From contig CAMBEJ010000005.1 of the NCBI GenBank assembly GCA_945865375.1, positions 16,727 to 80,726 of the forward strand: a stretch of 64,000 nucleotides of DNA, read 5' to 3'. The notes beneath the pieces were generated by a model that saw only the letters and a program-made list of their open reading frames with translations, had not been told where the DNA came from and searched no databases. Shown one piece after another: positions 4,929 to 62,823 of the stretch. Origin of the DNA: Akkermansia muciniphila (GTDB lineage Bacteria; Verrucomicrobiota; Verrucomicrobiia; Limisphaerales; F1-80-MAGS106). The position numbers and the translations under genes are program-made. The number at the start of each line of letters is the position of its first letter. The first letter of the stretch is position 1.

Positions 4929-4962
4929 CCCCTCTGTGGGCCGTCGACGGCCCACAGAGGGG
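4929..4962. repeat. 34-bp perfect palindrome
   Basis: cccctctgtgggccgtc/gacggcccacagagggg is self-complementary. Confidence 0.9.
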
Positions 4963-5220
4963 TTCGATCCTCACATGATCGACGTTGAAAGGTGGATTCA
5001 GAGGGGAATTCCCACCTTTTGCCGTGTTTGCAGACAAAGGGGAGCATCCAGAGGTGTCCGCAACGCTTCACCGATGTTGCTGCGGCCACTGTGGGCTTGC
5101 CGCCCGATCTCAAATTTGAGATTTCAGATCTGAAATTGGGCGCAGGCCCCGATCGGATTCCTCTTTCCACAGCCCGCAATGCTTCAGAATCTTTTCCAGA
5201 CCGCTTTCTGTCTTCCCTCG

Positions 5221-5242
5221 ACCTGCCTGCCGGCAGGCAGGT
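5221..5242. repeat. 22-bp perfect palindrome acctgcctgccggcaggcaggt
   Basis: Direct reading. Confidence 0.9.
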
Positions 5243-5865
5243 GAAGGCGACGATCCACCTTCGGCAAGGCTTCGGCGGGCAGGCCAGTTTATAAAACGGC
5301 GTCTCTTGCGGTTGCCGGGGACGATAAACACCGACCGCCTCCTTGGCCTCACACACCACAACCCACCTCCCTGAGGAGGCAGTTATCCTGGCTCACACAC
5401 AGTGCGAGCTCCAAATAACCGAAGGAGGACGTCGCGTGAATCGACGCGTCAAGTCTCAGAACTCCTGACCAAAGGCGCTGCACGAAGCGCCGCCGCGCCC
5501 GGGCGTGCGCGCGGTGCGGACGATGCTGAGGAATGTGCTGAATCTGGTTGACCGCGTTGGCGGCAATCCCGGATTGCTGTCCGCTTCGCATTGGAACAGG
5601 TGTCCGCTTTCATCGGAATCCGCAATCAACCGCAGCTCGCTCCCCGGTTCTTGCAAAGATTTGCTTTTCTTTTCCGTTTTCCGGAGCGTTCCACCAGACA
5701 CTTTAAATCGTGCATGCGTGGTGGCACCCGAGGTATTCCCCCTGGCGAAACCTCAGCGAGATCCGGCAAATTCCTTCGACCCTGGATGGAGTCGCGGAAA
5801 CGGGGACATTGTTCGACTTGGATATTCGACTTGTTATACGTGTACAGCGATGCCAGATTCCAATC

Positions 5866-7596: not shown

Positions 7597-8005
7597 TGCG
7601 TGCGCGAAGTGATGCGAGGAGCGACTGAGCGGCGGCCACGAAGTGTTCAGCACTCTCACTCACCTCCTCTGCCGTGTCATTGTCATAGGTATGCGAGGTT
7701 TCGTTGCGTGCCGCATGAAAGGTCATCCAAAGATCCACATCATCAATCAGGCGATTCTCCGCAGCCTGTCGGAATAACTCGCGGCGGGTCACGCCATCGA
7801 CGGATTCAGCACTGATGTTCGTCTCAAGCCAACGCTTCATCATTTTCCAAGACAGCTCATACGCGACCTCGAAGTTCTGGATGATGCCACTGCGGACGGT
7901 CTCCTTAATCTCAGGAGGGAGAGTCGCTTCGAATGTGGTTGCCGCATTGATGGATCGTTCCAGCGAGGCCGCTGCCTTTTCTAGGCTAGTGAGTTCCAGT
8001 TTCAT
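7589..8005 (-). CDS. HI0074-type nucleotidyltransferase partner (HEPN-like)
   Basis: MKLELTSLEKAAASLERSINAA... IIQNFEVAYELSWKMMKRWL ... ARNETSHTYDNDTAEEV; overlaps the MNT gene. Confidence 0.88.
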   Translation of the reverse strand: MKLELTSLEKAAASLERSINAATTFEATLPPEIKETVRSGIIQNFEVAYELSWKMMKRWLETNISAESVDGVTRRELFRQAAENRLIDDVDLWMTFHAARNETSHTYDNDTAEEVSESAEHFVAAAQSLLASLRARND

Positions 8006-8229
8006 GGCATTGGTTTTAGATTTAGGTTTTCCAAGTTGGCTTTGATTTGGTTCTCCAGTTTCGCGGACTCGGCGAACTGGGCGTGCAGTTCGGCGACGAG
8101 GCGTGGCATCTGTTGCTCGAAGGGATCACCGTCATCTGCGACTTCCTCGGCTCCAACGTAGCGGACGGGCGTGAGGACCTGGCCGTGCGGGGTGATTTCG
8201 GCGGTGGTGGCGGATTTGCAGAAGCCGGC

Positions 8230-8256
8230 AAATTGAAATCTGAGATTTGAAATTGG
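8230..8256. repeat. Palindromic repeat embedded in hsdM (aaattgaaatctgagatttgaaattgg)
   Basis: Near-palindrome aaatctgagattt; related sequence near 5109-5145; encodes ISNLRFQF in frame. Confidence 0.65.
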
Positions 8257-8395
8257 CGGGGCGTCGCCACGCCATGCGTGATAGGGGGTGGTGATTTTCT
8301 GTAGGTCGGCGTCGGTCAATTCGTGGTGGACGCGGTCGATGAGGGTGCCGAGTTTGCGGGCGTCGATGAAGAGGGTCTGCTTGCGGCGGTCCCTC

Positions 8396-8459
8396 AAAGT
8401 GGAAGCGGCATCCTGCCGCTTGGCGGAAGCAGAACGCGGCGAGACGCCGCTTCCACTTT
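8396..8459. repeat. BIME-like double-hairpin element embedded in hsdM
   Basis: aaagtggaagcggc...gccgcttccacttt, 14-bp terminal inverted repeat enclosing two hairpins. Confidence 0.85.
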
Positions 8460-8600
8460 TGTTTTTCGCGAGGAACCACAAGCAGACGGGAATCTGCGTG
8501 CTGTAGAAGAGCTGGCCGGGGAGAGCGTAGTCCTTGGGGAGAACGCCTTTGAGGCGGGGGTTGTCGCGCTCGATGGCGGCCATGGCGTCAGGCCAAGTGT

Positions 8601-8661
8601 GAAGTGAGAATGAAGAAGTATGAAGTTGGGGGTGTGGTTCTTCCTTCTGCATTCTGACTTC
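8601..8661. repeat. Imperfect inverted repeat embedded in hsdM
   Basis: gaagtgagaatgaagaag versus reverse complement of 8644-8661 gaagtcagaatgcagaag, 16/18. Confidence 0.7.
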
Positions 8662-8990
8662 TGCCTTCCTTTCGGGCTGCTTGGCCGACGCCTGGAGATG
8701 GGACCACCGGCCCTCCTTGGGCACCCAAAAAACATTCTCGGCTTTATATTCGTCGGGGTCCTCGGGGTTCGCGCCTTCGTAGTCGCCTTTGCCCGCGACG
8801 AGTTTGGCGCGGTGTTCCTCGAAGGTGTCGGAAATATATTTAAGGAAGATGAGGCCGATGACGACGTGCTTGTATTCCGCCGCGTCCATGTTGTTGCGGA
8901 GCTTGTCGGCGGTGAGCCAGAGCTTGGCCTCGAAGCCGATGGTCGCGGAGGACTGGGCGGAGGAGTTTGTTTTAGTGCGAGCCATGGCGA

Positions 8991-10098: not shown

Positions 10099-12684
10099 TT
10101 ATAGTTTGATCCCTTGAATCGATCCAACGGGTCCGATCCTGCACAGCCTGAGCACCGGCGCTGCTTTTTGCTTTGAGGCCTCCAGGTCTGCTTCGATCTC
10201 AACGACCCAGTCGTTCTTGCTTTCGGGATCAACCAGCACTTGTTCAACTCGCCAGAAGCCCGGCTTTTGATTTGGAGATGGATTTACGTAGGTGTGCCGC
10301 CTGTTTCTCGCCTCCGGATCGAGGCACAGCCGCCGGTGCGAGCCATAGTACTCCTCGAAAGAACGGCGCAGGGAATCCGGACTGAAGCAATCGGCTTCCC
10401 GTTGCCCCCCCGTAACAAATTCCGAAAGCGCCAGTTCATAATCGCGGTTCTGGAGGTTCCGGAGGAATGAAAACAGGACGACGCGGATCTGGCCGACAAA
10501 TTCTTTATGATCCCGAGTGATGTCCTTCAGGGCGGCATCTGCGCCGGGAGGGCGCGCCTCAGACTTGTCGGAGGGTGCCCTGTAATCCGGGTTCCGCATG
10601 CGTTCCCATTCCTCGATGAGGCTGGAATCGACCTGCCGGATCATCGCGGCGAGGTACGCCTCCATTTCGCGCACCGTCTCGTTCTTGGCGGCTTCGGGGA
10701 TGGTCTGGAGCATCACCTTATGCACGCTGGACAGGTGGCGCAATAGCACTCCTTCCGCGCGCTGCAGCTCGTAATCCTTGATATAGTCGGAGAATGATCG
10801 GAATTCTTCGAACATTTCGCGGACGATGGATTTGGGACGAATGTTCTCCTGTCCCACCCATGGATGTTTATCCGCAAAGGCATTAAAGGTGGCGTAGACA
10901 AACTCCCGTTTCGGTTTGGGATGCTCCAGCTTTTCCAACTCATCGATCCTTTGTTGGTACTCCATCCCCTGCTGTTTCAATTCCGCCATTTTCTCGGTCT
11001 TCAGACGATCCAGTTGTTTTCGGAGGACGATTTCGGGATTTTCAAGAATCGATTCCACGAGCGTCACCAAATCCAGGGGATAATCGGGAGCGGACGGATC
11101 GAGAAGATGAATGGTATCCAGCAAGTACAGTGACAGGGTTTGGTCCAGCGAGAAATCGTCTTGAAGCGCGGCGTTCACGCGCAACGAGCCAGACGGTTCT
11201 CCGGCTGGCGGAAACTCGATGATTTTTCGATCTAGGAGGGATCGGAACAGAACCCAGGCGCGTTTGACGTGATTTTTCTTTGCCTTCGGTGTTTCGTGAG
11301 AACGAGAGATAATTCGACGCATGGCCGCGCAACCGTCACCTGTGCGGCTGAGCACATTCATGAGCATGGAATGCGTGACAGTGAAGCGGGAACCCAAGGG
11401 TTCAGGAGGGGCCCCCATGAGTCGTGCAAAGGTATTCCTGTCCCAGGCAACGAAGTTTTTTTCCGGAGGCTTTCTTTTCACGACCTTCTTCCCGTCGCGC
11501 GCGGCCTTTTCGTCGAGCTTCAAGTTCTCGACGACATGTTCAGGAGCTTGCGCGATTACCCAACCGAGATCATCGAAGCCCTTGCGGCCCGCGCGGCCTG
11601 CGATCTGGTGAAAATCACGGGCGCTTAGAATTCCGGTCTTTTGACCGTCGAACTTGCAAAGGCGCGTGAATAGGACGGTGCGGATGGGAACGTTGATGCC
11701 CATGCCCAGGGTGTCGGTTCCACAAATCACCTTGAGGAGGCCTTTCTGGGCGAGCTGTTCGACGAGAACACGATATTTTGGCAACAGGCCTGCATGGTGC
11801 AACCCAATGCCGTGTCGCAACCAGCGTTTTATATCCGGTCCGTACGGGCTGTTAAACTTGAAGCCTTCCAGAGCGGACGCGAGGGCGGCCTTCTCCTCTT
11901 TGGAGCAAACGTTGATGCTGGTGAAGTTCTGGGCGCTTTCGGCGGCGTCGTTCTGGGTAAAGTGGACCACATAAACCGGGATCTTATTCTCGCCGACGAG
12001 AGTTTCGAGTGTTTGGGCAAGAGGTGTTTCCGCGTAGGAATAATCGAGAGGCACCGGGCGAGTTTTGGAGGAGACCACGGCGGTTTCCCGACCATTCAAC
12101 CGGGTCAGCTCCTGTTCGAAAAAGGTCGTATCGCCCAGCGTGGCGGACATCAGCAGGAACCGGGTCTGGGGGAGTGTGATCAAGGGCACCTGCCAGGCCA
12201 CGCCGCGGTCCCGGTCGGAGTAGTAGTGAAACTCATCCATCACCACATCGGACACGGTTGACGAAGGGCCTTCCCGGAGCGCCATGTTTGCGAGGATTTC
12301 GGCCGTGCAGCAAAGGATGGGGGCGTTGCGGTTTACGGACGCGTCACCGGTGCTCAGGCCGACGTTCTCGGGGCCGAACTCGCGGCACAACGCCATCCAT
12401 TTCTCGTTCACAAGGGCCTTGATGGGGCAGGTGTAGACGGAGCGACGGCCCTGGGCGAGCGCCATGAAATGGAGGGCGCTGGCGACGAGGGACTTGCCGG
12501 AACCGGTAGGGGTGTTGAGGATCACGTTTTTCTCCTCGAACAATTCCAGGATTGCGTTCTCTTGAGCAGGGTAGAGCTGCATCTGCTTGTGTTGAACGGA
12601 GTCAAGGAAACGGCCAAGAAGAACGTCATTCGAGGGCGTTTGGTCGCCCGGCTTTGGAAGCAGATCGTAGAGAGTGAAGGCCAC
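10099..12684 (-). CDS. DEAD/DEAH-box Ski2-like helicase (DUF3516-type)
   Basis: [69 protein letters not shown]. Confidence 0.9.
10103..10120. repeat. Solo repeat end resembling the RAYT-flanking motif
   Basis: Reverse complement gattcaagggatcaaact; near-identical to attcaaggggtcaaact at 61103-61119. Confidence 0.55.
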
Positions 12685-30312: not shown

Positions 30313-31071
30313 TTGCACAACAGAATTGACATTCTCAGAGGCTTGGTCGAGGAACGCGGAGCGCCTGAGGATTGGGTGTGGCTCGTGTTTAGTTTATATG
30401 AACAACAAGACTTCGCAGCAATCGTGGAGCACGTTGGGCAGGCGATAAACTCTACTGTCATTATGATCCCCAAGCCTGTGCTCTTTGGTGTCAGGGCCGC
30501 TGCATTGTTGGAGCTTGGACGCAGCGAAGAAGCCATTGCGGATTATTCGACAGTCTGCGAAATGAGCTCGACGCCCAAGTTTGCGAAGGCTGATGCGCTA
30601 TCTGATTGGGCGCTGATTTTGCTTCAACAGGGCGAATGGAATCACGCAATAGACAAGCTCGAAAACGCCTTGGATCTGAGTTCGGAACTTGAACAAACCT
30701 GTCCAAACTGCGCTCACGATTACATTGATGCCATCGCACGGGCATCCACTCGCGAGGAAGCGTGGAAACCCGTCGTTGACCAACTTCTTGCGGTTTATGC
30801 CAAACAAAACGTTCTCAGTCTTTTGGGAGAAGGGCTCGTCCGCAGCCTTGGCAGTTTACGCCGGGCATTGTTCAACGAGCAGGGGCTGCGAGCATGGCAT
30901 CGCACCTGGGTGACCGCCGGCAAACCTTTCGAACAACTGAAGATCCCTCTTCGCATCTTTTCCGTGGGAATTGAGTTCCTGATAAAATCAGACGCCAACG
31001 TCCTTCTGGATCTCGCCAAGGAAGAACGCCAGATTCTCCGGGACGTGCTCGGACTTGACGTTCAAAAATAG
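30313..31071 (+). CDS. TPR-like helical repeat protein (possibly 5' truncated)
   Basis: ALLELGRSEEAIADYSTVCEM, DWALILLQQGEWNHAIDKLENALDLSSE; frame open back to about 30142 without a clear ATG. Confidence 0.6.
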   Translation: MHNRIDILRGLVEERGAPEDWVWLVFSLYEQQDFAAIVEHVGQAINSTVIMIPKPVLFGVRAAALLELGRSEEAIADYSTVCEMSSTPKFAKADALSDWALILLQQGEWNHAIDKLENALDLSSELEQTCPNCAHDYIDAIARASTREEAWKPVVDQLLAVYAKQNVLSLLGEGLVRSLGSLRRALFNEQGLRAWHRTWVTAGKPFEQLKIPLRIFSVGIEFLIKSDANVLLDLAKEERQILRDVLGLDVQK

Positions 31072-32682
31072 CTAGGCGAAATCCCTCAACCTTCTCACCT
31101 TTCTGGTCCACGCCTGACGGTTGACCAGTTGAGCCAGCAGAACGTCACGGGTTGCCTCACTGATCAGGTTGCAGTTCGCGAGATGGTGCGCAAGGGCGTC
31201 CGTGCTGACGTGGAGGCGTTTTGCAAGAACTAACAAACCCTCAAATTCGAGGTCGTCATCACTGTGCAATCCTTTCTTGAGCAATTCCGGTGGCATCAGC
31301 AGTGCCGCGGCAAAGGCATTGGCCCGCTTCTCAAGGTCTCGCGGCGCCCAAGGGCCGGAGATCATTGCAAGGTTGCGCCCGTGAGCGCGGTCATGCAGAA
31401 GATGGCAAAGCTCATGAGCGAGGATAAACCGCTTGCCTGATGGAAATTCACAACACGGATTTCGCCGGTTCACGAAAATATGCGGCGCGCCTTGTTCCGG
31501 CTGGACAGCCAGACCTGCAGTCGTGGCCTCGTCTAACTCAATATCCTCAAAAGTCACACCGAGGCTTTCGAGATGCTCCTCAACATCCACGGCCCCGTCG
31601 CGTTTGTGCCGCATACCCGCCTTGGCTCTCCACTCCTGCGCCAGTCGATAGCCATCCGTCCAAGGCGATTCACCGGCTTGGAGCGGTTGCGGCTCGTTCG
31701 CCAACGCCGTCCACTTTGTGGGAGGCTTCTTGCCCGATGACCTCACCAAGCGGGTTGCAATCAACAGAACATCGCTCTCGGTAAGTGTGGGAGATGCTGA
31801 GCCGAACATGACCGCCGCTTCGCAACTGCCCGCGACACACAACCTGTTGCCTTCCTCCGGCTCAAACCACCGTTTGATTGATTCCTTGTAACCGGAGCAT
31901 TCAGTCTCAAGTTTATTGCGAAGTTTTTGCCAGCGATTTAGCCAATTCCCGGGAGTCGCTCCAAGGCCGGCCAGGACGGCAGTTCGGCTGATTTGGCGGT
32001 CGGCGCTGGCGATGCCTGCAACTTGCTGGCGCAGGGCCAGCAGACGGTTTGATTGCGGCTGCTGCTCAACCAGCGCCTCGACTGCCTGGCGCAGAACATC
32101 GAAAAGCGGACCCGCCACAGCGTCGGGTGTCACGCGAGTCGTTCCTGAACCGTGCAGGAAGCGAAATCCATCGGGTGCGCCAACCTGCGGGGCTTCCCCC
32201 CAGGAGAATTCCACTTCATCCCGCAAACGTCGAACCACCACGTCGGGGAACAGGCCGCCAAACCGGCTCGCACGCAGGCAATGACGGGAGGTCCACAAGG
32301 TGTGCGCCTCGTCCGCAGCCGTATCCCAGTTGCCGGCCCGCTCGAATCGTTTAGGACGATTCGTCTCCGACAGAGACTGCCAGGCAGACTCGCCGGCATT
32401 CGACACGGGCGGTCGTTGTTCATGGAGCAGCAAGTCCCAGGACTCCGTCAGCCACTCCATCACGGGCAGGAGATACCACTCCACTGCCTTCCTCACTTCG
32501 CTGCGATCCACGTGTTCGCAGAGATTCCGACCCGCAACCCAGATTTGCATCCGACCCCAGGAAAGATCTTCCTCTGGCGTGGCGAATCCAGAATCCAGAT
32601 TCGGAACAAATTCCATCCGGACCGCGAATTGATTCGGGTCGCCCGACTCCAGCGCCGGGCGTTGATGGAGCTTCAGACTCAC
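31072..32682 (-). CDS. Large ImmA/IrrE-family metallopeptidase with uncharacterised N-terminal domain
   Basis: RFILAHELCHLLHDRAHGRN (HExxH-like HELCH), RANAFAAALLMPPELL; GTG start overlaps the stop of the upstream gene. Confidence 0.82.
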   Translation of the reverse strand: MSLKLHQRPALESGDPNQFAVRMEFVPNLDSGFATPEEDLSWGRMQIWVAGRNLCEHVDRSEVRKAVEWYLLPVMEWLTESWDLLLHEQRPPVSNAGESAWQSLSETNRPKRFERAGNWDTAADEAHTLWTSRHCLRASRFGGLFPDVVVRRLRDEVEFSWGEAPQVGAPDGFRFLHGSGTTRVTPDAVAGPLFDVLRQAVEALVEQQPQSNRLLALRQQVAGIASADRQISRTAVLAGLGATPGNWLNRWQKLRNKLETECSGYKESIKRWFEPEEGNRLCVAGSCEAAVMFGSASPTLTESDVLLIATRLVRSSGKKPPTKWTALANEPQPLQAGESPWTDGYRLAQEWRAKAGMRHKRDGAVDVEEHLESLGVTFEDIELDEATTAGLAVQPEQGAPHIFVNRRNPCCEFPSGKRFILAHELCHLLHDRAHGRNLAMISGPWAPRDLEKRANAFAAALLMPPELLKKGLHSDDDLEFEGLLVLAKRLHVSTDALAHHLANCNLISEATRDVLLAQLVNRQAWTRKVRRLRDFA

Positions 32683-33008
32683 TGCGCTCCCTCCCAATAC
32701 CGCTTGATTTCGCGGGCCGCCACCGCGCCAGTTTTCAACAACTGCGTGCGAACCGAGAGCGGCACTTCCTTCCATGCCACCGGATACCCGTGCCACCGGT
32801 TCTTTGCCGTGTCGTGGATGCGAGCGCAGAAGGCCCGGCCTTTGTCGGCGGCAAACCGCATCTTCCCCTCTTCGACGCTCGACTGGAGAAGCTCCCACGC
32901 ACGCTCGATGCTGACATCCGCTGGGCAAAGCGATCCCTTGCGCCCCGGCTGCCAGGGCGCCTTGTGTTTCGGATTGCCTTCGTAAACAGGGTTCATATCC
33001 ACTCGCAT
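32679..33008 (-). CDS. Small uncharacterised protein coupled to the ImmA/IrrE gene
   Basis: MNPVYEGNPKHKAPWQPGRKGSLCP...RWHGYPVAWKEVPLSVRTQLLKTGAVAAREIKRYWEGAQ; overlapping stop/start. Confidence 0.7.
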   Translation of the reverse strand: MRVDMNPVYEGNPKHKAPWQPGRKGSLCPADVSIERAWELLQSSVEEGKMRFAADKGRAFCARIHDTAKNRWHGYPVAWKEVPLSVRTQLLKTGAVAAREIKRYWEGAQ

Positions 33009-33110
33009 AATAGCAAAACCGCCGCCATTTCAAACAGACAAATCATTTTGTGGTCCGAGGAAACCAAAGCATGGATCGGGGGCGGGGACGGCCAGGTCCT
33101 GGGAGGCCAA

Positions 33111-33218: not shown

Positions 33219-34080
33219 TCACAAGCGGAAGTTGCGTTGTTTGAGCCAAGTAAGGGCCAGTTCCAAATGGTCGGCGACGTTTTCGAAAATGACTGGGAGG
33301 GGTTGTTTGACTGTCCGTCGCAGCAGCGCTTGAAGTCCGGTTCGGATGAGGGCCAGGGCGCACGCCGCGTTGGGGTTGCGGATCAAGCATTTGTCTTCGC
33401 GCCACTGGACGTCGCGTTCCCAGTGGCGGGTTTCGCAGCTCCAATGGGAGCGAATGATCGCCGCCAGGCGCTTCGGGCCCGCTTCGGATTCTCCCAATCT
33501 GCTGACGATCGTTAACAACGACGCTGAGTTGCCGAAGATCCAGGCGTCCGTGGCCGCTTTCGGGTGAAGAAAAAAAGGGGGAGCCTCTGCCAATTGATTC
33601 CTACATATAGGGCAGTCGCAGTCGACGACGCTGGTCCTGGGAAAGTTTCTGAGCGGAGCGAACGAGGGTGCTCAAGTGAACGGCGCCCCGCAGCAACCCC
33701 AAGGCCACCAGCGTCAGCACGGCACCGATGGGGAAGGCCCGAGCACAGCGGGAGCGGGGGTCAGGCACTTTCTGAAAGGCCTCGAAGAGCGAACTCAGTT
33801 GAGGGGCTTTGAGGGCCGAACGTTCCGCCACTTGGGCTGCCAGACCTGCCCGATAGGCCTCGGGCAGTGGATCCGAACAGAGCAGCCTTGGCCTGGGGAT
33901 GCAGGGCTTTGAGATGCCAGATGGCACCGGTCCAGAGCACCAGTCCGACCCACTCCTCGCCCCGACAGACCACCTGATAGAGCGAGCGGCCCTTGGTTTC
34001 CGACAAAGGGGCCGGGACGGGTCTGGGCCCGCCACCAAAATGTCCAAACTCCAGCGCGGGCCGCAGGGCGGCCCGCCCAC
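33219..34080 (-). pseudogene. ISAs1/IS4-like transposase remnant (both termini kept, middle missing)
   Basis: FQKVPDPRSRCARAFPIGAVLTLVALGLLRGA (N-terminal), then SHWSCETRHWERDVQWREDKCLIRNPNAACALALIRTGLQALL (C-terminal). Confidence 0.82.
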
Positions 34081-62279: not shown

Positions 62280-62823
62280 GGCTGCCTTGAGCAACGCGTC
62301 GGCCCATTCCGCGTGTTCCGCCGTGAGTGGAGGAGATGGCGGTTGGGCATCATCGATGTCATCATAACGGCCGTTGCGGTAGCATTGGTCCACCAACGCC
62401 TGCAGATCAAGCGGGATGGGACGGTCCGTCTCACGTAACGGAACCGGTATGGCGGGAAGCCTGTCGCGCAGTGGCAAAGCGTAAAGCTTCTCGGGTGCGC
62501 TCAGACCAGGCGCAACGGACGCATACAAGGTAATCGCCGCGATACTGCGGCGGGATGCGGTGTTCGGGGAAAGCGATCACCTGTTGTCCCGAACGCAGGA
62601 AGTCGATCTCCACCAAGTTAGTGTTCGATTGCAGAATTTCGCGCTGTTTCCGAAGGTACTGCTTGGGGCCTTCGCCGCCGGCTTTGTTGGCCGGGCTGAG
62701 AAACTCAATGCCGGTAATGACCCTGCCGCCACCGTGTTCGCGAATTTCGATGTAGTTTTCCGTCACGGCCTCAGTAGTGATCGGCAGGGTATGTGCTTGG
62801 GCTCTACGCGGGAAGGGTATCAC
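62268..62823 (-). pseudogene. DUF4058 family protein C-terminal part, frameshifted
   Basis: TEAVTENYIEIREHGGGRVITGIEFLSPANK...NLVEIDFLRSG...YLVCVR, then second frame SAPEKLYALPLRDRLPAIPVPLRETDRPIPLDLQALVDQCYRNGRYDDID. Confidence 0.78.

Follow-up and report, generated by a model that had tools for sequence, protein, structure and literature searches.

A co-inherited gene pair of Verrucomicrobiota in which an ImmA/IrrE-type protease may control a small toxin-type protein

The module described here consists of two minus-strand genes, a small gene followed by a large gene, in the window, i.e. the whole stretch of 64,000 nucleotides that was analysed. The small gene (32679..33008) has an ATG start and encodes 109 aa followed by a stop codon; the large gene (31072..32682) has a GTG start, encodes 536 aa followed by a stop codon and shares a 4-nt overlap, GTGA, with the small gene. 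An earlier note on this DNA had described the two-ORF layout, the GTG start, the overlap and a HELCH motif in the large protein, and all of these were found on the minus strand at the positions given here. Judging from where the homologues align, the true start of the small gene may be the second ATG (32996). Directly 5' of the small gene, ~57 nt (33009..33065, minus strand) form a candidate promoter or 5' end of the cassette in the alignment with a sister genome (locus L005); this stretch is kept in the sister genome and partly in G658, and beyond it the similarity ends.

The earlier note had placed the module between repeats and an IS remnant, with a restriction-methylase fragment nearby. 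The IS remnant (33219-34080) is real but degraded, with DDE_Tnp matches that are weak and under the Pfam cut-off. The repeats turned out to be short, imperfect and mostly two-copy matches, i.e. of a kind that chance can give, and the methylase fragment, HsdM, is not a neighbour because ~22 kb, including rho and pur genes, separate it from the module. This fragment (8002-8985, minus strand) comprises the N-terminal domain and part of the methylase domain and represents a remnant of a type I restriction-modification system; a gene for a DUF3516 DEAD-box helicase is found at 10099-12684. Downstream of the module, a plus-strand ORF with TPR repeats (30313-31071), which is without an obvious ATG and is possibly 5'-truncated, lies tail-to-tail and flush with the stop codon of the large gene. 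After codon 523, the large gene diverges from its counterpart in the sister genome, leaving the final ~13 codons (31072-31110) unrelated, and therefore a rearrangement breakpoint is probably located there. In the sister genome, a full and a truncated DUF4058 gene are present directly upstream of the module (L005:4372-5690); a DUF4058 fragment is also present in the window at 62431-62823.

The large protein contains a Peptidase_M78 (ImmA/IrrE) domain (residues 372-501; 31180..31569, minus strand; Pfam E 3e-13) with the HELCH zinc-protease motif (residues 423-427; 31402..31416, minus strand) and, downstream of it, the motif EKRANAFAAALLMP (residues 451-464; 31291..31332, minus strand), the Glu of which we take to be the expected third zinc ligand. 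With a profile match across the domain and both motifs in place, the protein belongs to the Peptidase_M78/ImmA-IrrE family; moreover, the HExxH and the downstream Glu motif are intact in nine proteins. The domain matched 3dte, 8slm and 7t5t in the PDB. In PADLOC, the protease part matched CapP best (E 4.8e-17), followed by the RosmerTA antitoxin RmrA (best E 9.5e-15), and in NCBIfam it was again the protease part only that matched, weakly, a 'repressor/antitoxin' family.

Residues 1-340 of the large protein, its N-terminal region (31663..32682, minus strand), are a candidate toxin-binding or sensing part. The earlier note had been unable to assign this region to a family, and this still holds, but the unassigned part is ~340-370 residues long and not 270. 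The first ~340 residues had no family match in Pfam or the PDB, and thus no match to a known housekeeping family, the alternative considered in the earlier note. Similarly, we found no HTH in this region and no resemblance to known immunity proteins. AF2 models of the two proteins, built with two sequences per alignment, had a mean pLDDT of 47.7 and 32.5 and were discarded.

The small protein is composed of an N-terminal motif region (residues 9-29; 32922..32984, minus strand; Y-E-G-N-P-K-H ... C-P), as defined by the family alignment, and a core that aligns with CdiA-CT and NsnC (residues 36-96; 32721..32903, minus strand). The motif region is kept across the family, R51 and H73 are invariant (8/8 homologues), and the homologues are standalone proteins of 109-148 aa. 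While Pfam, NCBIfam and PHROGs gave nothing credible for the small protein, a single family was matched in PADLOC, i.e. NsnC of the Menshen system, and it was matched by all eight small proteins (best E 6.4e-7). The match covers the C-terminal ~65-90 of ~263 positions, and a shorter stretch in the case of Agrobacterium. Judged by these profile alignments, the small protein is homologous to the C-terminal part of NsnC. Run over Verrucomicrobiota, the NsnC profiles matched only the small-protein family and no true Menshen NsnC.

Against the PDB, the profile of the small protein aligned with 5t87_E, a CdiA toxin in a CDI complex, with E-values of 0.5 and 0.24 that are sub-significant alone; the alignment preserves the motif order LL..S, R, D..G..F, HG, W, L...G.V. 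5t87 represents the CdiA-CT toxin of C. taiwanensis, CDD cd20695 (PMC9111745). The CdiA fragment scored 14.0 bits and thereby exceeded all 20,000 of its own shuffles (best 11.2), a comparison that is favoured by the fragment having been cut at the aligned region. Low-scoring matches of the same profile to a mitochondrial/ribosomal protein and to TOM70 were rejected as biologically implausible. A search for the CdiA domain in 59 Verrucomicrobiota genomes gave no match and was uninformative.

An unannotated ORF of Nonomuraea gerenzanensis (L051:~4950-5261) ends in a CdiA-CT-like domain (YEANPKH...WHGYVVTW) and bridges the two groups of proteins. It matched CdiA-CT in tblastn (E 6e-4), shares with the small protein YEANPKH at the N-terminus and WHGY at the C-terminus, and keeps the motif of residues 9-29 in part. 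Against the small-protein profile it scored 24.0 bits, whereas shuffles reached at most 13.7 and unrelated decoy ORFs at most 11.1; some selection bias attaches to this score, the ORF having been chosen from among tblastn matches, where it stood at E 9. In total, the small protein is likely homologous to the CDI toxin domain, a relationship that is moderately supported through this one bridging ORF.

According to the earlier note, the small partner could be a substrate regulator. An HTH was found neither in the small protein nor in its homologues; because of this, and because of the domain shared with NsnC and, more weakly, with the CDI toxin, we read the small protein as most likely an effector instead of a regulator.

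Among the relatives found, a Verrucomicrobiales MAG (SYMW01000029) is the closest. Both genes are present in the sister genome, with protein identities of 90% and 93%, and both are under purifying selection, the dN/dS relative to the sister genome being 0.18 for the small gene and 0.17 for the large gene. A search of 388 Verrucomicrobiota genomes detected the full large protein in three, and an independent search for the small protein recovered exactly those three; two further searches added G427, G658 and G897, with G427 taken as the same genome as that containing L005. Full pairs were identified in six Verrucomicrobiota genomes and on two proteobacterial plasmids (n=8). In all eight, the small gene comes first and the large gene second, with an overlap or almost no gap between them. 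The pairs on the plasmids, from Candidatus Thiodictyon and Agrobacterium, are diverged and have the identical order and a 4-nt overlap. Over the eight pairs, which are kin sequences and not independent points, the identities of the small and the large gene correlate with r = 0.96. For the N-terminal region of the large protein, homology extends to Thiodictyon (18.1 bits vs 9.4 for the best of 5,000 shuffles) but was not detected in the proteins of Agrobacterium or Azospirillum. The reading in the earlier note hinged on the two genes being conserved together, and they were found together in the same genomes. We conclude that the two genes are co-inherited as a pair.

The same PSD1/DUF1501 gene pair is found downstream of the module in two species of the genus; otherwise the flanks differ. 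The shared neighbours, together with the stop of similarity ~57 nt upstream of the small gene, suggest that the module is a compact cassette that is inherited vertically and has not been recently mobile. Four scans of viral contigs detected no relatives, and among phage records neither the small proteins nor the CdiA fragment had a meaningful match. Three groups of matches were set aside. A match in Novosphingobium (H48) was, by inspection, a different protein and a chance match, and a match in G461 (L045) was a piece of an unrelated ORF of ~506 aa. Finally, ImmA matches on plasmids of Rhizobium, Methylocystis and Streptomyces were ordinary HTH + ImmA pairs and not this module; some of these pairs adjoin CBASS or ubiquitin-like operons.

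MazEF is encoded near the Thiodictyon copy of the module and Phd/VapC near the Agrobacterium copy; in G139, genes for a caspase-domain protein (Peptidase_C14) and for an excisionase-like HTH_17 protein lie just upstream (L046:6281-7255, minus strand, and 7942-8322, plus strand). These neighbourhoods mildly support a function in toxin-antitoxin (TA) activity or defence. The earlier note had suggested an undescribed TA, defence or mobile-element switch: the first two are partly supported, but the last is not, as genes for an integrase, a repressor or conjugation are absent from the vicinity and the module precedes the same gene pair in two species.

Of the known systems, RosmerTA is the one that the module works most like. 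In both, two genes are present, the toxin-type gene comes first and the partner has an ImmA/IrrE protease domain. ImmA-domain antitoxins of RosmerTA are a hub that is paired with many unrelated toxins, with the toxin gene first in 58% of the hub pairs, and RmrA antitoxins often bear an N-terminal HTH (PMC10440598). By contrast, the large protein described here is matched by RmrA profiles in the protease part only and has a new N-terminus of ~340 residues without an HTH, and the small proteins match no RmrT model in PADLOC. Menshen resembles the module in that all eight small proteins are similar to the C-terminal ~85 residues of NsnC; however, the domain is standalone here (109-148 aa vs ~263 aa for NsnC), the partner is a protease, and the match is confined to the C-terminal third of the NsnC profile. 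Moreover, neither protein of the pair matched the NsnA or NsnB models in PADLOC, and inspection of the flanking genes gave no ATPase of the Menshen kind. CdiA-CT toxins (5t87, cd20695) have a similar motif order and are connected to the small protein by the Nonomuraea ORF, but the match is weak (E 0.24-0.5), the small protein does not form part of a secreted CdiA or Rhs protein, and it is not paired with an immunity protein of CdiI size. Finally, CapH/CapP and PprI(IrrE)/DdrO have in common with the module the M78 domain, the HExxH and the downstream Glu motif, whereas here the protease is located at the C-terminus, behind a large novel region, and there is no accompanying gene for an HTH repressor substrate. 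Because there is no HTH or RmrT match, only the tail of NsnC and no repressor, we did not file the module as RosmerTA, Menshen or CapH/CapP.

We propose, with about an even chance of being right, that the pair is a toxin-antitoxin-type module in which the small protein is the toxin, the large protein the neutralising controller and the protease the release switch. The roles are assigned in this way because ImmA-domain proteins are established antitoxins of RosmerTA with diverse toxins. The small gene would encode a likely standalone toxin-type domain of the CdiA-CT (5t87)/NsnC-C-terminal kind, which would be toxic and probably act intracellularly; we can only guess at an RNase-like activity. 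The large protein, the probable antitoxin or controller, would be translationally coupled to the toxin, and would bind and silence it via the novel N-terminal region. Upon sensing of a signal, the ImmA/IrrE peptidase domain would act as the release switch, with the controller itself or a partner as the putative substrate, and cleavage would free the toxin. For CapP and PprI, ssDNA is the activating signal and a partner repressor the substrate (PMC10904395, PMC13373217); by analogy, the trigger here may be ssDNA.

The two proteins could also work the other way around, i.e. the large protein could be a sensor protease that cuts an inactive small protein, e.g. at the K-H...C-P segment, upon infection or DNA damage and thereby activates it. 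The protease motif that is intact in every homologue, the strict pairing of the two genes and the conserved segment that precedes the toxin-like core at the N-terminus of the small protein would all fit such an arrangement. We nevertheless consider it unlikely: the ImmA/IrrE proteases studied to date cut HTH repressors (PMC10904395, PMC13373217), the protease protein of RosmerTA is the antitoxin (PMC10440598), and no cleavage site is recognisable. Moreover, the Nonomuraea ORF has the K-H segment as well, and among the ORFs seen, none adjacent to it encodes an M78 protein. Similarly improbable in our view is that the small protein is an adaptor or sensor of the NsnC-tail type and not a toxin, making the pair a stress-signalling unit. 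The bridging ORF and the shuffle and decoy controls favour kinship with the toxin domain, and the operon layout and the antitoxin-like protease partner suit a toxin, whereas the restriction of the NsnC match to the C-terminal part and the weakness of the CdiA match by itself would suit an adaptor. A switch like CapH/CapP or ImmR/ImmA, in which the small protein is a repressor and the large protein an anti-repressor protease that derepresses a mobile element or defence operon, is very unlikely. Although the peptidase domain matches CapP better than any other PADLOC model (E 4.8e-17), an HTH is found in neither the small protein nor the N-terminus of the large protein, the genes next to the module include no defence operon, integrase or conjugation gene, and CapP is ~242-291 aa long and without this N-terminal region.

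If the pair is a toxin-antitoxin-type module, it is possible, although we hold this only tentatively, that a standalone intracellular toxin from the domain shared by CDI toxins and NsnC, under a signal-activated ImmA/IrrE controller with a new neutralising or sensing N-terminus, constitutes an undescribed two-gene abortive-infection system of Verrucomicrobiota and proteobacterial plasmids that would function in phage defence. We know of no previous case of such a toxin type under an ImmA/IrrE-type guard. If true, one domain would join CDI toxins, NsnC of Menshen and ImmA/IrrE-guarded TA defence, which, to our knowledge and as far as checked, have not been joined before through one domain. Moreover, the pair is small and self-contained and could reveal the role of the C-terminus of NsnC.

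On a plasmid of Azospirillum ramasamyi (L029:4513-6705), the gene for a relative of the large protein has a different gene in front of it, the 262-aa product of which has motifs resembling those of GNAT acetyltransferases by eye and no Pfam or PDB match. The relative is 45% identical to the Thiodictyon protein over the protease part, and its similarity to the large protein of Agrobacterium begins well ahead of the protease domain. These observations hint at possible partner swapping in Azospirillum, which, if true, would fit the picture of ImmA-domain proteins as a hub of TA systems.
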